A stretch of 11,373 nucleotides of DNA from an uncultured Clostridia bacterium. Its GTDB lineage: Bacteria > Bacillota > Clostridia > Christensenellales > UBA1242. A program made the translations under genes and the position numbers. Below the pieces are notes generated by a model that was not told the DNA's origin, did not search any database, and worked only from the letters and a program-made list of their open reading frames with translations. The DNA lies in the NCBI GenBank assembly GCA_934725745.1, contig CAKVCH010000006.1:1-11373 (forward strand). The letters are read 5' to 3'. Every line of letters begins with the position of its first letter. Position 1 is the stretch's first letter. This document shows, piece by piece, positions 3,401 to 10,788 of this stretch.

Positions 3401-3508
3401 ATAAAAGGGCAGGGCGAAGCCGTGGCTAAGGCGATAGCCTTAGCCACCCCTTGACGCCTTTTGGCGTCAAGGGGGCGCGCAAAAGTTTTTGCGCGCAACG
3501 GCTTCGCC
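3401..3508 (+). repeat. cloverleaf palindromic element, copy A
   Basis: A GC-rich island in AT-rich intergenic DNA folds without mismatches into a four-way junction. The outer stem is 3413-3423 with 3498-3508 (11 bp). Inside it are arm 1, 3424-3432 with 3437-3445 (9 bp, GATA loop); arm 2, 3447-3458 with 3463-3474 (12 bp, TTTT loop); and arm 3, 3475-3483 with 3488-3496 (9 bp, AGTT loop). The junction has almost no unpaired bases. The left flank ATAAAAGG (3401-3408) is shared, at the same distance, with the element at 9985-10098. It sits between two divergent promoters, about 33 bp from one -35 box and 70 bp from the other. No T-run follows it on the plus strand, so it is not a typical terminator. 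Function unknown: a non-autonomous mobile or REP-like element, a DNA cruciform site, or a structured RNA. Confidence 0.85.
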
Positions 3509-3578
3509 ATATGGACTTATGCACACATCTTAATTTGATTTAAATTTGTCGAAAATGACCAATCTCATAATAAAAACC

Positions 3579-3613: not shown

Positions 3614-4624
3614 ATGTTTGAAATTATTTTAGAAATACTTAAAGAAGCAACGATTGATTCTCTTAAAATGTTGCCAGTCATATTTGTTTGTTATGTAGTA
3701 ATAGAATTATTAGAAGATAAAATCCTAAACAAATATCAGACGAACAAGCTATTAAAATCCCCATTTGCCCCTGTTGTAAGTGCGGGCTTTGGGCTAATTC
3801 CACAATGTGGTTTTTCACTTGTCGCGACTGATTTGTTTTCAAAAAAGGCAATAACATTAGGCTCTCTTTTTGCAATTTATCTTGCAACTTCAGATGAAGC
3901 ATTACCACTTCTTCTTACAAATTCAAACCATTATTTGAATTTATTATACATCTTAGTTATAAAATTTGGCTATGCAGTTTTAGTTGGATTGACAATAGAC
4001 TTGATATTTAAAAACAGAAAATCAGCACTTGCCACATCAAACAACCTTATTTTAAAAGGCGAAAACAATCAAAAAGAAGAGCAGAAAAAAGACGATAAAA
4101 AATCCGAAGCAGTCAATTTAGACGCATCAAGCGATAAGACTTTTCACGCAGTCGACGAAAATGAAAATGGAGAAATTTTATCCGTCGAACACATCCAAGG
4201 TTGTTGCCATCATGATATAGAAAACGAGCATAAGGGGATAAAAGAAATCTTCTTGCATCCACTTTTACACTCTCTAAAAATCTTTCTTTTTATTCTTTTA
4301 ATAAACATAATTTTTGGTACAATCGTTGAGTTTGTGGGCGAAAATGCGATAAAAGATTTTATGACAAGTACGGGCTTTTTTGAACCTTTTATTGTCTCTC
4401 TCGTTGGGCTAATTCCTAACTGTGCTTCGTCCGTAATTATAACTGAACTCTTTATGGCGGGGAGCATAAGTTTGGGGTCTACTTTGGCGGGATTGTCTGT
4501 TAATTCTGGGCTTGCCCTTGTGCTACTATTTAAGACAAATAAAAATACCAAACAAAATGTTTTGATTCTTATTTCTCTCTATTCTTTAAGCGTGCTTTTG
4601 GGTGTAATAGTTAACCTTTTCTAA
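3614..4624 (+). CDS. ArsP_2-type putative heavy-metal (arsenic/manganese) efflux permease, 336 aa
   Basis: This is an integral membrane protein of the PF11449-like family of ten-helix putative heavy-metal exporters, variously annotated as arsenic efflux protein or putative manganese transporter. It has two related halves, each with a hallmark loop: GLIPQCGFS (about 60-68) and GLIPNCASS (about 265-273), each with a conserved Cys, followed by small-residue helices (ATSDEALPLLL at 91-101; LSVNSGLALVLLF at 294-306). The halves are joined by a long charged linker (about 134-210) that ends with a metal-binding-looking cluster, HIQGCCHHDIENEH (193-206). That Cys/His patch suggests transition-metal handling or sensing; the ion is not determinable from sequence. 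No arsR, arsC or metalloregulator gene is adjacent. The start is fixed by the promoter six bases upstream; the mRNA is predicted leaderless. Confidence 0.8.
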   Translation: MFEIILEILKEATIDSLKMLPVIFVCYVVIELLEDKILNKYQTNKLLKSPFAPVVSAGFGLIPQCGFSLVATDLFSKKAITLGSLFAIYLATSDEALPLLLTNSNHYLNLLYILVIKFGYAVLVGLTIDLIFKNRKSALATSNNLILKGENNQKEEQKKDDKKSEAVNLDASSDKTFHAVDENENGEILSVEHIQGCCHHDIENEHKGIKEIFLHPLLHSLKIFLFILLINIIFGTIVEFVGENAIKDFMTSTGFFEPFIVSLVGLIPNCASSVIITELFMAGSISLGSTLAGLSVNSGLALVLLFKTNKNTKQNVLILISLYSLSVLLGVIVNLF

Positions 4625-4779
4625 AAAAATTGACAGGGATTTTAGGGTTGTAAGAGACTAGAAAAATTTTACAACATTTATCTTAAAAAATAACGATTTA
4701 GAGAGCGAGAGTTAAATTAAATAAAACTATTTTTTGGTTGTTAAAAATACGAATAAGTAAAATAAAGGGGACAATAGAA

Positions 4780-6564
4780 ATGGCAAAAAAAGAATATCTT
4801 TGGGATTTTAGTGATTATTTTAAGGATGAAAAATCGTACGAACAAGCGTTTTGCGACGCGCAAAAAAGTTTGAATAATTTTAAAAGTTTTGAAGAGAAGT
4901 TGGGGAATAAAAAAGAACTTCTTTCTCTTTTGAAACTTCTTGAAAAGTCCTATTATGACATTGATAAGTTGTATGTTTATGCACATTGTTTGAGTGATAT
5001 GGATGTAACTAATTCCAAAAATCAAGAGCGTCTTGCAAAAGTGCAAAAACTTGCGACCGACCATTCGGTCGAAACTGCGTTTATCGCACCAGAACTGACA
5101 AGTATGAGCTCTGACTACTTGAACGAAATTTATCAAGATAAAGATTTTTCCGATTTTTCATCTCTAATTCGAGATGTTATAAGAAACAAACCACATACAT
5201 TAAAGAAGGATTGTGAAGTTTTACTTTCAAATGTTGGCGCTTTCTCTAGCGATTTCCAAAAAAATATGTCTAGTTTTGGAAACGGCGATTTAAAATATAA
5301 GGATGTTTTAGACAAAAATGGAAAGAAAAAAAAGTTGACGCAAGCGCTCATCTCGACTTATCTTCGTAGCCCCGATAAGGTCCTTCGTCTTAACGCATAC
5401 AAAGAGAGAATGATGGCGTATGGAAGATATAATAATTTTCTTTCTTCAAACTACATTGCAAGTGTTAAAAAGGACATTTTCTTTGCGAGAGCAAGACATT
5501 TTGAGTCGGCACTTACTGGGTCTTGCTATATGGAAGAAGTAGACAAAGCTGTTTACGAAAATTTGCTTAAAAATATAGAGAAAAATTTGCCATTTAACCA
5601 AGCATATTTTGTCGCGAAAAAGAAAGCGCTCAAATTGAATAGTTTTAGTTTAAGTGACATCTATTTTAATCCTTTTTCAAATGCAAAAAAGTATACTTTT
5701 GAAGAAGCGTTAGAAATTGTTTTAAATGCACTTTCACTATTTGGGAAAGACTACACTGACTACATTCAAAAAATGGTAAATCAAAATATGATTGATGTTT
5801 ACGAAAGACAAGGGAAAGTCGGCGGGGGATATGAAATTATGGCGTCAAAATGTTCGCCTAGAATTTTGCTCAATTTTACGGGGACGGCGAGTGATGTTTC
5901 TACTCTGGCGCACGAACTTGGTCATGCGATGCACAGCGTCTATTCTGACAACTCTCAAAGTATTATAAATTCGGCTTACACAATTTTCCTTGCGGAAATT
6001 GCAAGCACTGTAAATGAAACTATTTTGAATGACTATATGTTTGACAGAACAAATAACAATGCTGAAAAAATTTTCTTTTTGAGTGAGTTTTTATCAAACT
6101 TTAATGCAACGGTTTTTAGGCAAACGATGTTTGCTAATTTTGAACAAATAATTCACGACAAGGTCGAACACGACGAGCCTGTGTCTAAAGATGTTTTAAA
6201 TGAAACATATTTTGCTCTTGTTAAAAAGTTTTTTGGCAAGTCGGTTAAAATTTTAAGTGAAGTCAAGTACGAGTGGAGTTTAATTCCGCACTTTTACACT
6301 CCTTTTTATGTGTACAAATATGCAACTGGGCTAATAAGTGCGATAAATATCGTGGAGAATTTAAGAAGTGAGAAAATTACGGTTGACGATTATAAGAAGT
6401 TCCTTTCAAGCGGATGCATTAAAGACCCAATTTCTCTTTTAAAAATAGTCAAAGTTGATTTGACGACAAATGAGCCTTTTGAGATTGCTTTTAAGTATTT
6501 TGAAAATAAACTTAATTTGTTTAAAACTTTAACTACAAAGAAGGAAAAGGTCGTAAACAAATAA
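4780..6564 (+). CDS. pepF: oligoendopeptidase F (M3 family), 594 aa
   Basis: A cytoplasmic zinc metallopeptidase of family M3B that cleaves short oligopeptides, typically for peptide turnover. The zinc motif HELGH is at residues 378-382 inside AHELGHAMHS, and the third zinc ligand is probably Glu406 in AEIASTVNE, 24 residues after the second His, as expected for M3 peptidases. The N-terminal helical PepF domain (YLWDFSDYF... to about 200) and the conserved C-terminal FYTPFYVYKYATG region are present. The length is typical (about 600 aa), so it looks intact. The frame is open back to TTG 4738, but ATG 4780 is preceded at 9 bases by a good ribosome binding site (AGGGG at 4766-4770) and gives the usual N-terminus. 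I see no clear promoter; an inverted repeat (GTTGTAA 4647-4653, TTACAAC 4669-4675) lies in the upstream gap. No obvious terminator follows. Confidence 0.93.
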   Translation: MAKKEYLWDFSDYFKDEKSYEQAFCDAQKSLNNFKSFEEKLGNKKELLSLLKLLEKSYYDIDKLYVYAHCLSDMDVTNSKNQERLAKVQKLATDHSVETAFIAPELTSMSSDYLNEIYQDKDFSDFSSLIRDVIRNKPHTLKKDCEVLLSNVGAFSSDFQKNMSSFGNGDLKYKDVLDKNGKKKKLTQALISTYLRSPDKVLRLNAYKERMMAYGRYNNFLSSNYIASVKKDIFFARARHFESALTGSCYMEEVDKAVYENLLKNIEKNLPFNQAYFVAKKKALKLNSFSLSDIYFNPFSNAKKYTFEEALEIVLNALSLFGKDYTDYIQKMVNQNMIDVYERQGKVGGGYEIMASKCSPRILLNFTGTASDVSTLAHELGHAMHSVYSDNSQSIINSAYTIFLAEIASTVNETILNDYMFDRTNNNAEKIFFLSEFLSNFNATVFRQTMFANFEQIIHDKVEHDEPVSKDVLNETYFALVKKFFGKSVKILSEVKYEWSLIPHFYTPFYVYKYATGLISAINIVENLRSEKITVDDYKKFLSSGCIKDPISLLKIVKVDLTTNEPFEIAFKYFENKLNLFKTLTTKKEKVVNK

Positions 6565-8205: not shown

Positions 8206-9441
8206 ATGAAGACATCAACTCTTAAAGGAATGTATGATTATGTGCCAAAGGAAGCAAAAATAAGAGATTATTTGCAAGGGAAAATAATGGACGTTTACAC
8301 TTCGCAGGGGTTTAACAGAATATATACGCCTATTGTGGAAGATATTGAAAATCTCGAAAAAAGCGATGGGGGCGAAAACCTTAATCTTATTTTTAAGATT
8401 TTAAAGCGCGGTGAAAAGTTTGAAAAAGCGGTTGAAAATAGAGATTTTGGCAATTTATGTGATATGGGGCTTAGGTATGACTTAACTTTGCCACTTTCTC
8501 GTTTTTTTGCCGAACATAGAAATGATTTAAGTCTTCCTTTTAAATGTATTCAATGCGATAGGGTTTATAGGGCGGAACGACCACAAAAGGGAAGAAATAG
8601 GGAGTTCGTTCAGTGTGATATTGATATTATTGGTTCAAAAAGTAGCGATTGTGAAATAGAACTTATTGATACAACTTCGCGCGCGCTTCTTTCGCTTGGG
8701 CTTAATGATTTTACAATAAAAATAAATCATCGCGGATTACTTAAAAAATTACTTATCGAAATGGGCTTTTGTGAACAAAATGTGGATAGCGTGTGTATAA
8801 CTTTCGACAAATTAGACAAAATTGGTTGTGACGGAGTTGGAAACGAACTTTTGGAAAAGGGATTCAACGAGATCGCTACTCAAAAATTTATGAATTTACT
8901 AAACGACCTGCCACTAAGTCTTGAAAAGATTGAAAATATTGTTGGAAGTTGTGAAGAAATTGATAATTTAAAGGAAATAATCGCAGGTGTAACTGCGCTA
9001 AGTGGCGGAAAATACAAAATTGAGTTTGATTTAAGTTTGGTGCGTGGGCAAAGTTACTACACGGGAGCGGTTTTTGAAATTAAAAGCAATGAATTTTCGT
9101 CGTCTGTAGGTGGTGGCGGAAGATACGACAACTTAATCGGAAAATTTATAGGTGAAAGCGTGCCTGCGGTTGGTTTTTCAATTGGATTTGAAAGGATTTA
9201 TTCGATTTTGTCTCAAAAACAAATAAAGACGGGCAGAAATAAGTTGGCAATTGTTTATGATGAAGGGAAATTTGTTGAATGCCAAAAATTTGCCTTGACA
9301 TTGCAAAAGGATTTTGATACGGCGCTTTTTGTGAGACCAAAGAAGTTAGGAAAAATGCTTGATAAACTTGAATGGGAAGGTTATTATGGCTTTGTTGTGT
9401 TTGGAGAGAATGATATAAAGCCTTTTAAGGTGGCGAAATAG
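8206..9441 (+). CDS. hisS: histidyl-tRNA synthetase, 411 aa
   Basis: A class II aminoacyl-tRNA synthetase that charges tRNA-His. Motif 2 is YRAERPQKGRNREFVQCDID (121-140); the histidine-specific block is LVRGQSYYTGAVFEI (278-292), with the catalytic-type Arg280 kept; motif 3 is AVGFSIGFERI (321-331). GLRYDLTLPLSR (88-99) and the motif 2 wording belong to the group shared with archaeal, eukaryotic and some bacterial HisRS rather than the E. coli type. Two oddities: RGLDYY of most enzymes is RGQSYY here, and the C-terminal anticodon-binding domain stops soon after GENDIKPFKVAK, perhaps 20-30 residues short of usual. No continuation is seen in other frames, so it is a short form rather than an obvious frameshift. 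HisZ is unlikely because the histidine loop and motif 2 are intact. The start has AAGGAA five bases upstream. Confidence 0.9.
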   Translation: MKTSTLKGMYDYVPKEAKIRDYLQGKIMDVYTSQGFNRIYTPIVEDIENLEKSDGGENLNLIFKILKRGEKFEKAVENRDFGNLCDMGLRYDLTLPLSRFFAEHRNDLSLPFKCIQCDRVYRAERPQKGRNREFVQCDIDIIGSKSSDCEIELIDTTSRALLSLGLNDFTIKINHRGLLKKLLIEMGFCEQNVDSVCITFDKLDKIGCDGVGNELLEKGFNEIATQKFMNLLNDLPLSLEKIENIVGSCEEIDNLKEIIAGVTALSGGKYKIEFDLSLVRGQSYYTGAVFEIKSNEFSSSVGGGGRYDNLIGKFIGESVPAVGFSIGFERIYSILSQKQIKTGRNKLAIVYDEGKFVECQKFALTLQKDFDTALFVRPKKLGKMLDKLEWEGYYGFVVFGENDIKPFKVAK

Positions 9442-9492: not shown

Positions 9493-9927
9493 ATGATTGT
9501 TTTACTTTGTGACCACGCGGGATTTGAATTAAAAGAATATTTAAAAAATAGACTTGTTAAAGAAAACTACGACATTGTTGATGTCGGGGCGTGTGAACTT
9601 GACGAAAGTGACGACTTTTCGACCTATGTCGGAATTGTGCGAAGAACTATTGACACCTTCAACACGGAGAATAAAATTATTGCAGTCTGCGGGTCTGGTG
9701 TCGGGATGTGTATTGGACTTAATAAAATTAAAGGCGTGAGATGTGTCGTTGGGCACAGCGTGAGCGAAGTCGAAATGGCGAGACTTCATAATGATGTTAA
9801 CACGCTTGCACTTGGCGGGCGAGTAACTGGAAAAATGGTCGCATATAAAATGGTGAAGACATTTTTAGAAACAAAAAGTCTTGGTGGAAAGTACGCGAGA
9901 AGAATGAGTGATATTGAAATTAAATAA
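9493..9927 (+). CDS. rpiB: ribose-5-phosphate isomerase B (RpiB/LacAB family), 144 aa
   Basis: RpiB interconverts ribose-5-phosphate and ribulose-5-phosphate in the pentose phosphate pathway. Key residues line up with E. coli numbering: Asp7-His8 in CDHAGFELK, the base Cys66 in CGSGVGM (64-72), and His99 in ARLHND (96-101), followed by LALGGRVTG. Ser68 replaces the usual Thr of CGTG. The length is normal for the family. Other members isomerise galactose-6-phosphate (LacA/LacB) or allose-6-phosphate, but the single copy without sugar-transport genes favours the housekeeping role. It lies 51 bases after hisS with its own ribosome binding site (AGGGA at 9479-9483, 9 bases from ATG), no promoter is seen in the gap, and it is probably co-transcribed. 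No ordinary terminator follows; the cloverleaf element begins 57 bases after the stop. Confidence 0.88.
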   Translation: MIVLLCDHAGFELKEYLKNRLVKENYDIVDVGACELDESDDFSTYVGIVRRTIDTFNTENKIIAVCGSGVGMCIGLNKIKGVRCVVGHSVSEVEMARLHNDVNTLALGGRVTGKMVAYKMVKTFLETKSLGGKYARRMSDIEIK

Positions 9928-9984
9928 AAAAGATTTTAAAGGTTTAATGAATTTAAATTTGGACTTTTAAAAAAATCAGAAAAG

Positions 9985-10098
9985 ATAAAAGGTGGGGGAG
10001 AACGGACAAAGGACGCGAGAAACGCGTCCTTTTCCTTTCTTCGCCAAATTTTTGGCGAAGAAAGGGGCGTGACTTAAAAGTCACGCCGTCCGTTCTCC
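9985..10098 (+). repeat. cloverleaf palindromic element, copy B
   Basis: It has the same architecture as 3401-3508 with a different sequence. The outer stem is 9997-10007 with 10088-10098 (11 bp). Arm 1 is 10008-10017 with 10023-10032 (10 bp, AGAAA loop); arm 2 is 10034-10047 with 10052-10065 (14 bp, ATTT loop); arm 3 is 10066-10074 with 10079-10087 (9 bp, TAAA loop, possibly 10 bp). Only T10033 is unpaired at the junction. ATAAAAGG (9985-9992) again lies 4 bases outside the stem. The outer stem reads GGAGAACGGAC against GGCGAAGCCGT in copy A, and the arm 2/arm 3 border has AAAGGGGCG against AAGGGGGCG. It lies between convergent genes, 18 bases from the stop of the lipoprotein gene, so there it might help end transcription, though no long T-run follows on either strand. 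Confidence 0.85.
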
Positions 10099-10116
10099 GT
10101 AGGTATAAAAACTAAT

Positions 10117-10788
10117 TTAATTTTTTTGCAAAATTTCGCCAGTTTTAACATCAATTAAATTTGCAACAATATCGCCATTTCTTGTTACGCACAAAACATA
10201 ATAATAAATATTTGACATATCTTTTTTATCGCGGACCAATTTTATATAGATTTCGCCTTCAAAAGAGCCGTTTATGTTAAATGTTTTTAATCTTTCCTTG
10301 TTTTTGTGGGTAAAAATATCAAGTGCTTTGTTATAGTCAACGTTCCAATCTTTTGACAGACAGACAAGAGAAATCTTTTCTCCGCCATATTCAAGCTCCA
10401 AATTGTCGTCTTTTGAAACTGTTTTGCAAATATCGAAAACAAGGGTGTTGTCAAAAGGATTGACTTCAAATTCTCCGTCAATTTTTTCGTTACCAATGTT
10501 TAGTGTGAACTTTTTTTGAGATAAATCATCCGTTTTAACAACAATTACTCCAAAATCAACAAGTGGCGACTTTATGCCGTCAGCAACGAAGTCTTTTTCG
10601 CGCTTGCCGTCGGTGAAAGTTGCTGAAAAATTTTCGCCGATTCCCATAAAAAAGTTTTGTCTGTACTCGCTGACATTTTGGCTGATGTTTTCTTCGACAC
10701 TTGTGCCACATCCAACAAGCGAAATAATGCACAAAATTGCACATAAAACGACTGTATATATCTTAATTAGTTTATATAAATGTTTCAT
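10117..10788 (-). CDS. lipoprotein of unknown function, 223 aa
   Basis: The N-terminus is a type II signal peptide: a basic start (MKHLYKLIK), a hydrophobic core (about 10-24) and lipobox LVGC with the lipidated cysteine at residue 27. The mature part is thus predicted to be anchored outside the membrane and would be a substrate of Lgt. The remainder looks beta-rich with alternating hydrophobic residues (FTLNIGNEKIDGEFEVNP, YYYVLCVTRNGDIVANLIDVKTGEILQKN). The ending resembles the last repeat of small domains that follow a modified-residue pattern (VDVKTGEIL), seen in PepSY-like proteins, but the match is too slight to assign a family. No Shine-Dalgarno site precedes ATG 10788. A weak -10-like TATACA lies 6 bases upstream without a good -35. 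The gene is alone, convergent to rpiB and divergent from hflX. Confidence 0.75.
   Translation of the reverse strand: MKHLYKLIKIYTVVLCAILCIISLVGCGTSVEENISQNVSEYRQNFFMGIGENFSATFTDGKREKDFVADGIKSPLVDFGVIVVKTDDLSQKKFTLNIGNEKIDGEFEVNPFDNTLVFDICKTVSKDDNLELEYGGEKISLVCLSKDWNVDYNKALDIFTHKNKERLKTFNINGSFEGEIYIKLVRDKKDMSNIYYYVLCVTRNGDIVANLIDVKTGEILQKN

Follow-up and report, generated by a model that had tools for sequence, protein, structure and literature searches.

Three-Armed DNA Cloverleaves of Unrelated Sequence Dispersed in Uncultured Clostridia

Introduction

Two gaps between genes in the 11,373-nucleotide stretch of DNA analysed here (hereafter, the window) hold cloverleaves of the same plan, in which an outer stem closes three hairpin arms, so that either strand, when single, can form a four-way junction. 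Their stems are unrelated in sequence. How might a shape recur where the sequence does not? A previous sequence-only reading of the window proposed that shape rather than sequence is recognized or copied, or else that arms are replaced as modules. Herein, we describe the two structures, their counterparts in related genomes and the evidence bearing on their maintenance. On balance, we consider it probable, with some reserve, that the cloverleaves are dispersed non-coding palindromic elements, the pairing of which is kept by template switching and the spread of which favours an intact three-arm fold. So far, the class is known from a single family-level group of uncultured Clostridia.

Results

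Two Cloverleaves in the Window

Cloverleaf B (9997–10098) has an 11-bp outer stem, with 9997–10007 paired to 10088–10098. This stem encloses arm 1 (10008–10032; 10 bp, loop of 5 bases), arm 2 (10034–10065; 14 bp, loop of 4) and arm 3 (10066–10087; 9 bp, loop of 4), a single unpaired base separating arms 1 and 2. According to our detector, there is no mismatch in any of its stems. Folded as DNA (9975–10108), this region formed the cloverleaf at -51.4 kcal/mol, as against -16.3 ± 2.7 kcal/mol for 200 shuffled sequences, none of which equalled it (z = -13.1). Fold and detector thus both confirmed the mismatch-free outer stem and three arms of the sequence-only reading, which had, however, placed the start of the structure at 9985 instead of 9997; positions 9985–9996 are flank.

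Cloverleaf A (3413–3508), folded as DNA in the same way (3403–3518), reached -53.1 kcal/mol (z = -12.1). Its outer stem of 10 bp (3413–3422 with 3499–3508) closes arms of 10, 12 and 9 bp (3423–3446, 3447–3474 and 3475–3496), each with a loop of 4 bases; again, the detector found zero mismatches, and two unpaired bases follow arm 3 on its 3' side. Among 100 Markov shuffles of the window, no structure with three or more arms appeared, and only one with two.

A comparison of the arms of A with those of B by eye revealed nothing convincing; the earlier claim that the stems are unrelated in sequence is correct. The outward flanks, read on the minus strand at equal distance from the stem (3401–3412 for A, 9985–9996 for B), are identical at 9 of 12 bases; for the best of four comparisons, chance would give this at about 0.006, in a test made post hoc. 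Searches with B and its flanks against phages and with A and its flanks against plasmids returned no matches.

B lies 69 bases 3' of the end of an rpiB-like gene (9493–9927, plus strand; LacAB_rpiB, Pfam PF02502, 130 bits). It sits between the 3' end of this gene and that of a minus-strand ORF (10117–10788), which converges on B, has a lipoprotein-like start as judged by eye and is without a Pfam match. On one side of A is a minus-strand ORF; on the other, downstream of A, is an ArsP_2 permease-like gene (3614–4624, plus strand; Pfam PF11449).

Distribution of the Three-Arm Plan

The detector allowed 2–8 arms and demanded Watson–Crick stems with at most one mismatch each, and therefore favours intact copies. 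Relatives were reached through the PepF protein of the window (4777–6561), which led to genomes at 51–58% identity, grouped as one genus of 12 genomes. In G1492, the genome richest in copies, 703,527 bases of about 1.1 Mb were scanned. At a score of at least 24, these 703 kb yielded 77 three-arm structures, one four-arm structure and none with two arms, while three shuffles of the same DNA yielded no structure at all. Lower thresholds raised the three-arm count only to 83. Two-arm structures exceeded the shuffles at low scores (13 against 1.7 at ≥18 and 4 against 0.3 at ≥20, with none left at ≥22), and weak two-arm forms may therefore exist.

A census was also taken of the window and 33 genomes, 34 samples in all, with G1492 excluded. 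It gave 15 matches at a score of at least 30, of which 14 were three-armed; shuffles gave none. These matches came from seven samples: six from G1502, three from G1545, two from the window and one each from G976, G1561, G1543 and G1448, the last being probably due to chance. The other 27 samples were without a match at this score. The three cloverleaves of G1545 looked mutually unrelated by eye, and a further 54 kb of this genome contained no cloverleaf. The four-arm matches, one in G1492 and a doubtful one in G1502, are AT-rich and imperfect. Over all 282 loci (2.60 Mb, overlaps included), 93 of 94 matches at ≥30 were three-armed; in the first 40 loci (154 kb), searched with an older detector, no cloverleaf was found. 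Overall, the class is patchy among species, and the plan is common to unrelated sequences. Since little DNA was scanned outside the family-level group, the class may be wider.

Two cloverleaves, at L144:3138–3224 and at C10:138291–138374 of G1492 (L166), directly adjoin short tandem repeats with units of 7 and 10 bases. In G1545 (L198:17642–18044), a cloverleaf starts 46 bases 3' of the SRP RNA gene.

At a score of at least 26, G1492 provided 76 matches, two of which (C10:117900 and C23:34660) are AT-rich and probably chance; the remaining 74 all score at least 29. Sixty-six of them form one sequence family and eight are unrelated to it, two of the eight resembling one another. This division followed a first sorting into 61 main and 13 other structures, five of the latter being reassigned to the main family by eye. 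The family comprises 55 copies of family I and 11 of subfamily II, which has a longer unit of about 167 bp with an extra hairpin after the cloverleaf and is often tandem; tandem pairs with a 167-base period were observed at C12:7503–7771, C12:19695–19960 and C18:102940–103208. Elements are about 80–115 bp long and occur about once per 9 kb in G1492. Their outer stem is mostly an inverted repeat of 10–12 bp, about one helical turn.

The view that the plan is kept and the sequence is not thus holds for A and B, for the eight unrelated cloverleaves of G1492 and for copies in G1502, G1545 and the pair G976/G1561. The sequence-only reading had named shared primary sequence among other copies as an outcome that would speak against it. 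Such sharing exists within the family, but the plan also recurs across unrelated families.

Placement and Element Ends

Nearly all strong G1492 elements (73 of 74) are clear of called ORFs, which occupy 81% of the DNA. Divergent gaps hold 4 of 73 elements, though they make up 49 of 321 gaps. In co-directional gaps, family I copies are sense-oriented in 30 of 39 cases, and copies are nearer to the preceding stop codon than to the following start codon in 27 of 39. T-rich tracts follow the stem on the 3' side in 33 of 55 copies and on the 5' side in 24 of 55, compared with 26% nearby. The T-rich tracts, the closeness to the preceding stop and the scarcity in divergent gaps would suit intrinsic or bidirectional terminators of an elaborate kind, in which the outer stem is the terminator stem and the three arms are accidental or stabilizing. 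Moreover, the 3' tracts are at about twice the background, so that some copies may act as terminators. However, 22 of 55 family copies have no 3' tract, and both window copies fail a rule of five Ts in eight on both sides. Scanning around B called terminator-like sites only at single arms (3, against 1.2 in shuffles). One hairpin suffices for an intrinsic terminator, and we know of no requirement of termination for three arms. As an account of the whole class, termination therefore appears unlikely to us.

Conserved sequence in G1492 stops at the ends of the outer stem, with the exception of a weak, roughly inverted motif outside it, mostly 6–9 bases from the stem (range 0–21). Scored with a noisy matrix, this motif exceeds the 95% null in 31 of 55 copies on the 3' side, which is the side used for training, and in 14 of 55 on the 5' side. 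One unrelated cloverleaf (C10:177285) bears the outside motif of the main family on both sides, at 15.0 and 13.0 bits (99% null, 8.6), and is the strongest hint that cloverleaves of unrelated sequence form one system. Among all eight unrelated cloverleaves, the motif passes the 95% null on both sides in this one, on one side in three and on neither in four. In REPs, the foot of the palindrome is tagged by GTAG or CGTC. Over the 45 bases 3' of family I copies, words resembling TAGTTG, GTAGT and TCGTA are over-represented, without a fixed position relative to the stem foot; GTAG stands 3' of B.

How Copies Might Spread

A REPIN joins a conserved REP sequence to a second, inverted copy of it and is linked to a RAYT. 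The cloverleaves could be elements of the REP/REPIN type, mobilized on single strands by RAYT or an IS200-like HUH transposase. They are likewise short, intergenic, palindromic and high in copy number (cf. the accounts given in parts of PMC3116915 and PMC3733652). Flank matches of 2–9 bases beside the stem (offset 0, or up to 4 for lengths of at least 4) are at chance level, which leaves them without a target-site duplication there. Family I orientation agrees with the leading strand inferred from GC skew in 44 of 55 copies, a figure confounded with gene direction; the five cases informative for separating replication from gene direction divide 3 to 2. Compensatory changes have been noted in one portion of REPINs, and the legend to a supplementary figure mentions a clover fold (PMC3116915). 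As for the transposase, Y1_Tnp (IS200/RAYT type) is present in 5 of 35 genomes, including the cloverleaf-bearing G1502.

Against this stands the lack of a Y1_Tnp match in G1492, as well as in G976, G1561, G1545 and G1543, all of these assemblies being MAGs and perhaps incomplete. RAYT/IS200 mobilization was rejected as a general explanation on this ground. The architecture also differs: a cloverleaf is closed by an outer stem, and its arm 3 is not arm 1 repeated in inverted orientation, the basal identity of the two being 0.38 in A, 0.12 in B and 0.40 on average in the 55 G1492 copies. We thus give a REP/REPIN-type origin a low probability. No ORF family of three or more copies was detected in the 703 kb scanned of the roughly 1.1-Mb G1492 genome. 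We only infer insertion itself, because no strain-level empty site was seen beside a filled one.

Stem Pairing and Covariation

Stems of the 55 family I copies are Watson–Crick in 2,269 of 2,279 cells (99.6%), the rest being five G-T pairs and five other mismatches. At 37 of 44 pair positions, two or more Watson–Crick types each occur in at least two copies. Relative to the commonest pair, 434 cells are altered on both sides and five on one, the first figure being inflated by frame slips of the parser. A slip-free count was therefore anchored on the conserved TGTG/CACA of the outer stem, which was usable in 51 of 55 copies. The five outer-stem pairs beside the anchor show 58 two-sided changes and one one-sided change, and one of these pairs is A-T in 27 copies and G-C in 24, with zero intermediates. 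The sixth pair has five two-sided and two one-sided changes. At the seventh, which is the stem end, there are 16 and 17, respectively, and pairing falls to 49%. Shuffling partners among copies lowers Watson–Crick pairing to 71%.

A sequence-only profile gave 114 matches, a count in which palindromic copies may appear on both strands; only six lay outside the detector set, one of them probably spurious. Broken family copies therefore seem few, as far as a profile built from intact copies can tell.

Strong covariation of this kind, together with the sense orientation of most family I copies in co-directional gaps, would also be expected of a structured RNA (an sRNA, a leader or a 3'-UTR), the pairs of which are kept by purifying selection on the RNA fold. 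Selection on RNA should nevertheless leave G-U pairs. G-T accounts for 23 of 387 stem pairs (5.9%) in 18 tRNAs of G1492 and for 11.5% of pairs in a loose set of terminator-like hairpins from that genome, a control that admits G-T by design; the cloverleaves have 0.2%. No Rfam family matched at its gathering score at the window copies or at the copies in six loci, elsewhere in which Rfam recognized tRNA and SRP RNA only, and the weak matches to B all fell under the family cut-offs. An RNA function is thus quite improbable as the reason for the pairing. Near-total Watson–Crick pairing, two-sided changes and G-T pairs rarer than in tRNA rather indicate that pairing is kept at the DNA level.

As regards the extreme covariation that the sequence-only reading had seen between A and B, two unrelated copies prove none; covariation is shown instead by the 55-copy family and by the two orthologous sites described below.

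Orthologous Sites

The closest genome pair used for an orthologous site, G976 and G1561, is 86% identical over 4.75 kb, with a cloverleaf at the same place in both. Between the two, one outer pair has a compensated change, the loops are strongly divergent, and G1561 has two pairs fewer in arm 2. Five relatives with the same-looking flanking genes over the stretch compared (L066, L067, L124, L125 and L131; judged by eye) are without a cloverleaf there. G1502 and G1492 have a family I copy in common in one orthologous gap, as read by eye. Here, compensated changes affect two pairs of the outer stem and a single pair in each of arms 2 and 3, and one pair at the tip of arm 3 is open in G1502.

A second gap in the same two genomes, 3' of the same 369-aa ORF, holds cloverleaves unrelated in sequence, 21 bases past the stop in G1502 (L196:10872) and 12 in G1492 (C21:54843). 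The latter is the weakest of the eight unrelated G1492 structures (score 29.5, one mismatch per arm). Given that G1492 has an element about every 9 kb, unrelated cloverleaves could meet in one gap by chance.

That the cloverleaves are unrelated look-alikes or assembly artefacts, as the lack of shared stem sequence between the window copies might suggest, is hardly credible and was rejected, since shuffles give no three-arm structures at these scores and the plan is found again in several assemblies made separately, in two pairs of species (G976/G1561 being one) even at orthologous sites.

Variation of Arms and Loops

Variation in arm 1 is uncorrelated with that in arm 2 (Mantel r = -0.01, 55 copies, with noise added by parser frame slips). 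An arm has been largely replaced in at least two of 55 copies (C18:9748 and C23:70921); several other arms flagged as divergent in family I are frame slips. The outer stem and arm 3 are correlated at 0.45, possibly an effect of the parser. The proposal that arms behave as modules is therefore supported insofar as they look separate, within the noise that the slips bring. Among 52 three-base loops of arm 3, GAA occurs 27 times and its reverse complement TTC 10 times; as high a value was reached in 96 of 5,000 column shuffles, which makes this sign of loop inversion moderately significant.

Discussion

Template switching is known to create and repair stems (as reported in a part of PMC8794818) and to homogenize arms and invert spacers, including a GAA to TTC case (likewise from a part of PMC8604942). 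It would yield near-perfect stems, two-sided changes, scarce G-T pairs and loops in both orientations. Template-switch correction of inverted repeats is thus most likely the best explanation of the DNA-level pairing, and the maintenance mechanism is probably a known one. Replication or repair synthesis that meets a folded arm could switch templates, as in quasipalindrome correction, and copy one half-arm from its partner half, so that a one-sided change would become two-sided in a single step. Loops might be inverted and arms rewritten in the same way, with the fold retained. In yeast, spacer inversions were found only in arms of more than 9 bp, according to the available part of PMC8604942; arm 3 of the family, with 7–8 bp, is below this length.

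Template-switch or quasipalindrome correction, as treated in the cited parts of PMC8794818 and PMC8604942, would account for perfect stems, two-sided changes and loop inversion. It is a mutation process and not an element family, and it accounts for pairing, not for a constant number of arms. For the latter, we tentatively favour a mixture of two causes: a common ancestor whose arms are hardly ever gained or lost, and reading of the folded junction. On the reading of the cloverleaves as elements kept by template switching, copies would spread by some transposition or copying process, perhaps on single-stranded DNA, which would require, or at least prefer, an intact three-arm fold. Some copies downstream of genes would probably have been co-opted as transcription terminators.

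Overall, shape seems to be inherited more faithfully than sequence. Regarding the earlier proposal of shape over sequence, the architecture is indeed kept across unrelated sequences; that anything recognizes the shape is a conjecture. It is tempting to go one step further and suppose that the heritable identity of an element is its shape, a three-armed four-way junction read by a copying or transposition machinery while template switching rewrites the arms. We regard this as a tentative idea, more doubtful than not. If it were true, copies without alignable stems would be true homologues, and one slot might be occupied in two species by cloverleaves that differ in sequence, of which G1502 and G1492 offer the one case observed.

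Several described systems resemble the cloverleaves in part. Mitochondrial double-hairpin and repetitive hairpin-forming elements, as covered in parts of PMC10085805 and PMC2800124, likewise look mobile, form hairpins and are mostly intergenic, and hairpin types of sponge mitochondria are a few complementary substitutions apart. What these parts describe, however, is two hairpins, with no mention of a closing outer stem, while the cloverleaves have three arms and an outer stem. Three arms were found in 77 of 78 G1492 structures at ≥24 and in both window copies, which places them outside the double-hairpin elements. Moreover, several fission-yeast double-hairpin copies are identical or nearly so across species according to the same sources, whereas the sequence of a cloverleaf turns over and its shape stays. 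The parallel is a loose one, just as the sequence-only reading had said.

Like MITEs and other small mobile sequences (PMC2229807, in part), the cloverleaves are non-coding and dispersed, and their outer stem may correspond to inverted ends; they differ in having three internal arms, no target duplication beside the stem and, as far as the 703 kb of G1492 can tell, no parent transposon. Bacterial stem-loop sequence families (PMC2267715) offer a systematic catalogue of folding repeats, but one clustered by sequence, and the words cloverleaf, three stem and four-way are absent from its text. Searches of the open-access literature and of Rfam found no described family that fits, which is weak evidence. 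It is the sequence-independent three-arm architecture that sets the cloverleaves apart from known dispersed palindromic repeats.

Repeat families are normally recognized and classified by sequence, an approach that would overlook a shape-conserved class or break it up. The elements also provide a natural setting in which to study template-switch correction in bacteria. In addition, the 58 two-sided changes against one make a case in which strong covariation need not imply an RNA function, which calls for caution in covariation-based RNA discovery. The question posed by the elements is what counts their arms to three.

Finally, three further observations concern the window itself. The lipoprotein-like gene next to B converges on rpiB here (9493–10788) and is co-directional with it in the five relatives that match both genes (L141, L142, L149, L150 and L151); it seems to have undergone an inversion in the window lineage, one junction of which is occupied by cloverleaf B. 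Downstream of a 265-aa ORF ending at 2056, an inverted repeat of 29 bases (2158–2221; 86% complementary, 6-base spacer) looks like an ordinary AT-rich hairpin. For the HisRS-like protein (8206–9441), a 47% match occurs in a genome that is distant in other respects and the second HisRS-like match of which is at only 24% identity, possibly a case of horizontal transfer.
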